The position numbers were made by a program, and so were the translations under genes. Under the pieces are notes generated by a model that searched no databases, had not been told where the DNA came from, and worked only from the letters and a program-made list of their open reading frames with translations. A stretch of 64,000 bases of DNA from positions 1 through 64,000 of the forward strand of contig CAJOHD010000009.1 of assembly GCA_905234275.1 (NCBI GenBank). The letters are read 5' to 3'. The DNA comes from an uncultured Bacteroidales bacterium. GTDB lineage: Bacteria > Bacteroidota > Bacteroidia > Bacteroidales > F082. Shown in pieces: positions 19,789 through 21,833 of this stretch; the first letter of the stretch is position 1; each line of letters opens with the position of its first letter.

Positions 19789-20853
19789 ATGAAAAAGTTA
19801 TTTAAAACTATCGTAACATTAAGCTTGACAATCATTATTGGATTTACGAGCACAGAAGTATTCGCAGGTAATAAGGATAGAGCAGGTCAAGCAGGTGCAA
19901 ACGAACTGTTGGTTAATCCATGGGCGGCATCATCAGGATGGGGCAATGCCGGTATGGCAAGTGTCAAAGGTGTTGACGCTATTTGGAGTAACGTGGCAGG
20001 TATCTCTTTCACGAATACTATAGATCTTGACTTTTCATATACCAACTGGCTTGCCGGTTCAGGAACAAGTGTTGTGTCATTCGGTTTGTTGGCACGCGTT
20101 TCAGAATCAGTGGTCGCTGGTTTGTCAGTCATGTCAATGAGTTTCGGTGAACTTCAGAGAACAGACACAGAACACCCGGATGGTGGTATTGGTACATTCA
20201 AGCCAAGTTTGATGAACATCAACATCGCTATTGCGAAGTCGTTCTCAAATAGTATCCACGGCGGTTTTGTTTTGAAGATCATCAGTGAGCAGATTACTGA
20301 TATGAACGGTACAGGTGTCGCAATGGACGCTGGTATCCAGTATGTTACAGGTATTACCGATAATATCCACTTCGGTATCGCCTTGAAGAACATCGGACCT
20401 ACCATGAAGTTCAGCGGCGACGGTTTGTCATTCAAAGTGGCTATCGATGGTATGAGTTCAGACCTCACAGTGGTGCAACGCGCCGATGAGTTCGAGCTTC
20501 CAACACAGCTGAATATTGCTGCAGCATACGATTTCAACTTTGCTAACGCAAGCCGTTTGACACTGGCATTCAACTTCAACTCAAACGCTTTCTCGAAAGA
20601 CCAATTCATCTTCGGTGCTGAGGGTTCATTCCGTGACATCCTCATGCTCCGTGCCGGTTACACATTCGAGAACGGTGTCACAAAGAGTATCGAAGACGCT
20701 GACTGCACAAACGTCAACAGAGGTTTGTCACTCGGTGCTACAGTCCAGGCTCCTCTTAACAAGAAGGGTTTGAAGGTCTGTATCGACTACTCATACCGCG
20801 ACACAGCTCACTGGAAAGGTACACATTCAGTCGGTGCAAGAATTTTATTCTAA
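19789..20853 (+). CDS. PorV/PorQ-family outer-membrane protein
   Basis: 354 residues: a signal peptide (about 1-27, ending VFAGNK) followed by a FadL-like barrel of the PorV/PorQ family. Typical features are the N-terminal GANELLVNPWAASSGWGNAG and VKGVDAIWSNVAGIS segments (Asn-Pro-Ala-type loop), repeated amphipathic strands and a terminal GARILF ending on Phe. In the T9SS, PorV is the shuttle that binds cargo sorting domains at the outer membrane. This protein may be the housekeeping PorV or, given its operon, a paralogue devoted to the cargo upstream. The gap to the cargo gene is 32 bases. No terminator directly follows; the greA leader hairpin could serve. Confidence 0.82.
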   Translation: MKKLFKTIVTLSLTIIIGFTSTEVFAGNKDRAGQAGANELLVNPWAASSGWGNAGMASVKGVDAIWSNVAGISFTNTIDLDFSYTNWLAGSGTSVVSFGLLARVSESVVAGLSVMSMSFGELQRTDTEHPDGGIGTFKPSLMNINIAIAKSFSNSIHGGFVLKIISEQITDMNGTGVAMDAGIQYVTGITDNIHFGIALKNIGPTMKFSGDGLSFKVAIDGMSSDLTVVQRADEFELPTQLNIAAAYDFNFANASRLTLAFNFNSNAFSKDQFIFGAEGSFRDILMLRAGYTFENGVTKSIEDADCTNVNRGLSLGATVQAPLNKKGLKVCIDYSYRDTAHWKGTHSVGARILF

Positions 20854-20860
20854 AAAAAAC

Positions 20861-20889
20861 TTGCATTTGAAAAAAAAGTTGTATCTTTG
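20861..20889 (+). promoter_or_regulatory. greA promoter
   Basis: TTG (20861-20863), an 18-base spacer and TATCTTTG (20882-20889), one of the best matches in the window to the Bacteroidota consensus. Initiation would be expected at about 20893-20896. Confidence 0.75.
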
Positions 20890-20904
20890 CATACAATTTT
20901 ACGG

Positions 20905-20941
20905 AAAAAAGGGCCCTTATTTCGGTAAGGGTCTCTTTTTT
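20905..20941 (+). terminator. Terminator-like hairpin in the greA leader (possible attenuator)
   Basis: AAAAAAGGGCCCTTA (20905-20919) pairs with TAAGGGTCTCTTTTTT (20926-20941) around a TTTCGG loop, with one bulge in the stem, and ends in a T-run. It lies after the greA promoter and 20 bases before the ATG, so most polymerases that initiate here must read through it; those that stop would leave an RNA of about 45 bases. E. coli greA also has a leader terminator giving short transcripts (GraL). Confidence 0.75.
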
Positions 20942-20961
20942 ACAATTTAAAAATTTAAGTT

Positions 20962-21438
20962 ATGGCAGACGTAGAATACTTTACACAAGCTGGATTACAG
21001 AAGCTGAAGGACGAACTGGAGAATCTTTGTGTCAACGAACGTCCTAAGATTGCAGCGGCAATAGCTGAGGCGCGCGATAAGGGTGACTTGTCGGAAAACG
21101 CTGAATATGATGCGGCTAAAGAAGCTCAGCAACTTCTCGAGATGAAGATTGTGAAGCTCCAGCTTACCATTGCTAACGCACGAATCATCGATGAATCGAA
21201 GATGGACACATCTAAAGTTTTGATTCTCTCGACAGTGAAGATCAAGAACGTGAAGACAAAACAGATGATGTCATATACTATCGTTCCTGAAAAAGAGGCA
21301 AACCTCAAGGCTGGAAAAATCTCCATCACATCGCCAATAGCTAAAGGTCTCCTTGGCAAAGGCGTCGGTGAAGAAGTCGAGATCCAGGTGCCGGCAGGAA
21401 AGCTTTTGTTTGAAATTGTTGAAATAACAAGAGAATAA
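20962..21438 (+). CDS. greA: Transcription elongation factor GreA
   Basis: 158 residues. It enters the RNA polymerase secondary channel and stimulates cleavage of backtracked RNA. The N-terminal coiled-coil carries the tip acidic residues in the family signature ARDKGDLSENAEYDAAKE, and the C-terminal FKBP-like domain ends VPAGKLLFEIVEI. Length is normal. It heads a tight operon with a HIT protein (2-base gap) and an rlmL-like methyltransferase (2-base gap). A terminator-like hairpin in its leader suggests attenuation or autoregulation. Confidence 0.97.
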   Translation: MADVEYFTQAGLQKLKDELENLCVNERPKIAAAIAEARDKGDLSENAEYDAAKEAQQLLEMKIVKLQLTIANARIIDESKMDTSKVLILSTVKIKNVKTKQMMSYTIVPEKEANLKAGKISITSPIAKGLLGKGVGEEVEIQVPAGKLLFEIVEITRE

Positions 21439-21440
21439 TT

Positions 21441-21833
21441 ATGGCTTCGATATTTTCAAGAATAGTTGCAGGTGAGATTCCTTGCTATAAAATTGCTGAA
21501 AACGATAAGTTTTTCGCATTCTTCGACATCAGTCCGCTCACGCCGGGTCACACTCTGGTGATTCCTAAGAAAGAAGAGGATTATATCTTCGACATTTCTG
21601 ACGCTGACCTCGCCGAGATGATAGTCTTCGCAAAGAAGATTGCTGTCGCGATTAAGAAAGCCATCCCATGCAAGAAAGTCGGCGTGGCTGTTATCGGTCT
21701 CGAAGTGCCTCACGCTCACATCCACCTCGTGCCTATGCAGAGAGAGGGCGACCTCGACTTCCGTCGCGAGAAGATGCATCCGACAGAGGAGCAGTTCAAG
21801 GAATGGCAGAAAAAAATCGTTGAGAATCTGTAA
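21441..21833 (+). CDS. HIT family nucleotide hydrolase/transferase
   Basis: A 130-residue cytoplasmic HIT-superfamily protein: IFSRIVAGEIPCYKIAEND at the N-terminus, PLTPGHTLVIPKKE, and the histidine triad VPHAHIHLVP near residue 95. Members cleave nucleoside phosphoramidates or dinucleoside polyphosphates (Hint type). It is the second gene of the greA operon. Confidence 0.93.
   Translation: MASIFSRIVAGEIPCYKIAENDKFFAFFDISPLTPGHTLVIPKKEEDYIFDISDADLAEMIVFAKKIAVAIKKAIPCKKVGVAVIGLEVPHAHIHLVPMQREGDLDFRREKMHPTEEQFKEWQKKIVENL

Follow-up and report, generated by a model that had tools for sequence, protein, structure and literature searches.

A terminator-like hairpin stands between a predicted promoter and the greA start codon in a gut Bacteroidales genome, and a hairpin in the greA leader is a conserved feature of greA across the phylum Bacteroidota. 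On the comparative evidence, we consider it likely that this hairpin is a greA leader attenuator, an intrinsic terminator that would give an RNA of approximately 45 nt and through which the level of greA would be set and possibly regulated. Early termination probably limits the expression of greA, as it does for the E. coli counterpart. The window, the whole stretch of DNA that was analysed, is 64,000 nt long, and the element occupies positions 20861-20961, 5' of greA. The greA gene (20962..21438, + strand) encodes a protein of 158 aa with Pfam PF03449 and PF01272. The identity of this protein to E. coli GreA is 42%, and its catalytic acidic residues are kept, with D42/E45 aligning with E. coli D41/E44. 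A HIT-domain protein gene (21441..21833, + strand) follows greA. Because the gap is only 2 nt, the two genes probably form one transcript in the window genome. In some flavobacteria, greA and the HIT gene are separated by a further terminator-like hairpin, which is bidirectional (L076 3074-3112, L054 3032-3070, and L042 2995-3040), so the two genes may be separate transcripts there. An additional full-length GreA-like gene, with an identity of 41-47%, is present in two genomes of the order (G111:C6:19965-20423 and G018:C35:76424-76864).

The putative promoter consists of a -33 element, TTG (20861..20863, + strand), and, after 18 nt, a -7 box, TATCTTTG (20882..20889, + strand), of the sigma-ABfr type TAnnTTTG. 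This is the -7 box of mapped Bacteroidota promoters (PMC7366714), and start-site mapping in Flavobacterium places it at -12 to -5 (PMC9723704). Called by motif, TTG and TATCTTTG are predicted to be a Bacteroidota-type greA promoter; such sigma-ABfr-type promoters are outside the scope of the sigma-70 promoter scan that was run with the terminator scan. Because of the box position in Flavobacterium, greA transcription should start near 20894. The predicted short leader RNA (20894..20941, + strand), counted from the box position to the end of the T-run, would be 43-48 nt long, and the median predicted length across leaders is 43 nt.

The hairpin lies at 20906..20940 on the + strand, with a 5' arm at 20906-20920, a loop at 20921-20924 and a 3' arm at 20925-20940. 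It is identified by folding, by the terminator scan and by covariation. A terminator T-run of six T (20936..20941, + strand) ends 20 bases before the ATG, and the linker between the -7 box and the hairpin is 16 nt. The fold of 20890-20961 has a minimum free energy of -18.6 kcal/mol (z = -4.2), and none of 200 shuffles was equally stable. An independent terminator scan calls the hairpin on both strands; the minus strand is also terminator-like, and therefore the direction of the hairpin is not fixed by its shape alone. The hairpin sequence has one copy in its own genome within 3 mismatches, which rules out a common genomic terminator sequence. The first-pass annotation had described a promoter, a hairpin with a T-run and then the ATG at 20962. 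This order was confirmed together with the range 20861-20961, and the hairpin limits given there, 20905-20941, are right to within one base.

The per-site conservation among 18 close relatives was 0.97 for the -7 box, 0.46 for the linker, 0.88 and 0.98 for the two arms, 0.98 for the T-run and 0.63 for the stretch behind the hairpin. The -33 region is weakly conserved within the genus (0.57). The box and the hairpin are thus near-invariant within the genus, while the linker and the downstream spacer drift.

A total of 209 greA start regions were gathered from Bacteroidota genomes, and 199 of them were distinct. Of the 199 Bacteroidia greA leaders, 181 had a hairpin with a T-run at or below -8 kcal/mol, compared with 36 of 199 dinucleotide shuffles. 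At a threshold of -12 kcal/mol, the counts were 161/199 in the greA leaders and 8 in the dinucleotide shuffles. The hairpin lay a median of 32 nt from the ATG. At the -8 threshold, 18 of the 199 leaders have no hairpin; the count of 181 is conservative, because a shorter hairpin is visible in some of these misses (e.g., L054 and L023). In the other classes of GTDB Bacteroidota, a hairpin at or below -9 was found in 43 of 46 greA leaders (10-22 in shuffles), with unrelated stem sequences. The first-pass annotation had proposed a comparison of greA leaders across Bacteroidales, and a conserved order of promoter, hairpin and ATG is supported phylum-wide (181/199 and 43/46 for the hairpin; 133/178 for a promoter box 5' of it). 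Another class, in most of L249-L257, L264-L265 and L269-L270, has a different shared greA leader hairpin, AAGTAAAGTCAGC...GCTGACTTTACTTTTTT, located 64-105 nt before the start codon.

Selection on the structure was examined in 49 hairpins from the order, almost every one representing a different family. An 11-pair stem was formed in 95% of the cells, a value that is inflated because the set was chosen among hairpins already found by folding and having a clear stem. The both-sided changes are stronger evidence for the stem than the percentage paired. They were seen at 9 of 11 pairs, with 75 such cells versus 27 in shuffles. When the partner was slid, pairing fell to 39-71%, and a slide of one base gave approximately 70%. 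RNAalifold, unaided, recovered the same stem. At one pair of the stem (alignment A1 columns 11 and 36), 38 of the 49 sequences have G-U, 9 have A-U and none has G-C; the 3' U of this pair seems fixed. A covariance model built on the 49 hairpins (R1) was rejected as a greA-specific RNA family and excluded as evidence for one, because it is unspecific: it also scores ordinary A-/T-flanked bidirectional terminators, and other hairpins of the own genome score above the greA hairpin. An Rfam scan of the window stretch and of the greA loci of 20 relatives gave no family at the leader above the curated threshold.

The gene upstream of the element encodes a PorP/SprF-like outer membrane protein (19789..20853, + strand; PF11751, E 8.5e-06) and is co-directional context outside it. 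Its end at 20853 is only approximately 50 nt before the hairpin, and terminator-like hairpins occur in 24 of 66 co-directional control gaps. The hairpin could for these reasons be the 3' terminator of the PorP/SprF-like transcript, with greA transcribed from another start or by read-through; the first-pass annotation had likewise offered, as an alternative, a hairpin that terminates the upstream porin operon. However, 133 of 178 leaders had a TAnnTT[TC]G box in the 60 nt preceding the hairpin, against 13 ± 4 expected, and only 5 of 178 had one between the hairpin and the ATG; 45 of 178 leaders had no box in the searched stretch. The upstream genes vary, and the hairpin was retained in 43 of the 52 leaders in which the nearest long ORF upstream runs divergently. 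Nor would a terminator of the upstream gene predict the genus pattern of a near-invariant box and hairpin with drifting linker and spacer. Since the promoter precedes the hairpin, which is kept beside unrelated or divergent upstream genes, the porin alternative is unsupported, and we regard it as very improbable. A leader attenuator may also stop read-through from upstream, and the two roles are compatible. Two of the divergent upstream ORFs were inspected (L053 1932-2345 (-) and L136 1-330 (-)); they come from distant Bacteroidota, are mutually similar and are small and lipoprotein-like.

The combination of box and hairpin is much rarer at other genes than at greA. Other upstream regions on the same loci had a hairpin at or below -8 in 50 of 169 cases, and box plus hairpin was found in 5 of 169, three of them at the HIT gene behind greA, compared with 81 of 115 for greA. 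The own-genome control covered 20 stretches of 20 kb and the window (approximately 460 kb), with 314 ORFs and 173 upstream gaps of at least 60 nt. A hairpin was present in 45 of these gaps, a box in 109, and a box followed by a hairpin in 3. greA is among these 3, and its hairpin is the most terminator-like of them.

For the leader attenuator, we propose the following course, inferred from sequence and comparison. RNA polymerase would start near 20894 at the TTG/TATCTTTG promoter, and the hairpin would be nearly the first RNA made. A fraction of the complexes would release the 43-48 nt RNA at the U-run. The remaining complexes would continue past the hairpin and transcribe greA and the HIT gene next to it. 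The greA level would in this way be set, and possibly regulated, by attenuation.

Stem-loops near 5' ends protect transcripts, and in 86 of 133 leaders no more than 5 nt separate the predicted start from the stem (no more than 10 nt in 105 of 133). The hairpin might accordingly be a 5'-terminal mRNA stabiliser or a translation element instead of a functional terminator. We think this improbable: the T-run directly behind the stem is conserved together with it (0.98 in the genus, and as a tail in alignment A1), which counts against a stabiliser because a stabiliser needs none. GreA feedback is plausible by analogy with E. coli (PMC6829880). A trans-acting leader RNA is plausible too, since E. 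coli GraL works in trans (PMC6829880) and 5' UTR-derived RNAs exist in B. thetaiotaomicron (PMC7366714). That the element should be mainly the source of a trans-acting small RNA, with greA attenuation incidental, is nevertheless unlikely in our view. Only a short sequence precedes the stem, its conservation within the genus is low (0.46), and changes in the stem are compensated, so little conserved sequence is left for target pairing.

The closeness of the stem to the predicted start also bears on how the attenuator might be controlled. In most leaders, it leaves no room for a 5' antiterminator or a leader peptide. No ATG is present in 20894-20961 of the window, and a small ORF of at least 5 codons was found in only 24 of 133 leaders. 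Judged from predicted starts, the classical antiterminator and leader-peptide routes appear closed in most species. Since there is no room upstream, control, if any, should act on the polymerase (through GreA, Nus factors, or the NTP/ppGpp level) rather than via an RNA switch. The options would then be plain constitutive attenuation or control via the polymerase and its factors, with GreA as the obvious candidate. We suggest only tentatively that GreA itself tunes termination, by analogy with E. coli, in which cleavage-competent GreA represses greA via the leader. The sequence does not give the sign of any GreA effect. Naively, anti-pausing by GreA would lower termination, a sign opposite to the E. 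coli feedback. It is likewise possible, though rather doubtful, that this is a minimal promoter-proximal attenuator without antiterminator or leader peptide, by which GreA sets its own level via the polymerase just past the promoter.

The main texts of the Bacteroidota transcript-map papers examined name no greA leader RNA. We found no literature report of a Bacteroidota greA leader terminator in the main texts searched, and an unremarked entry in supplementary tables or browsers is possible. Structured 5' elements are known in the same phylum, including the Flavo-1 RNA motif and, in Flavobacterium psychrophilum, a set of structured 5' leaders. However, the main text of that study lists the leaders of pheA, hisG, ftsY, acsA, alaS and rimP, not greA (PMC9723704). 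With the greA leader, a phylum in which few leader regulators are known would gain a named candidate RNA.

The greA leader terminator is of a known kind. Besides the E. coli example, attenuators in greA and rnk leaders were predicted for Proteobacteria, bacilli and Clostridia by Naville and Gautheret (2010, PMC2965389), with Bacteroidota unnamed. Their prediction was also comparative and also concerned a 5' terminator upstream of greA, but they described a clear antiterminator in each cluster, whereas most leaders here, by their predicted starts, have no 5' space for one. In E. coli, the intrinsic terminator GraL lies between the greA promoter(s) and the start codon and gives RNAs of 37-47 nt (from P2) and 49-59 nt, and approximately a third of transcription reads through (PMC6829880). 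Cleavage-competent GreA lowers greA expression via this leader in vivo, and the feedback failed to reproduce in vitro (PMC6829880).

As a yardstick, the same scanner recovered the E. coli greA leader terminator. The first-pass annotation had likened the present leader to GraL, and the order of promoter, terminator and ATG supports such a layout in Bacteroidota. The two share a terminator between promoter and greA start codon, an RNA of similar length (43-48 nt predicted here) and a downstream GreA that is cleavage-competent, judged by residues D42/E45. They differ in the stem sequence, in the promoter, which is of the sigma-ABfr type in Bacteroidota, and in the distance from the hairpin end to the ATG, which is approximately 20-30 nt here compared with approximately 100 nt in E. 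coli. A released short RNA, termination that is imprecise and autoregulation by GreA are described for E. coli GraL; for the Bacteroidota leader they are possibilities. GreA self-control in E. coli has itself been observed in vivo only. With the hairpin right behind the start and a different sigma factor, the Bacteroidota leader offers a clean system for testing a direct GreA effect on termination. Its recurrence in a distant phylum in the simplest layout suggests that the arrangement is under strong selection. If GreA does set its own level here, termination-based self-control of greA, viewed alongside the leaders of E. coli and Firmicutes, would be phylum-spanning and possibly convergent.
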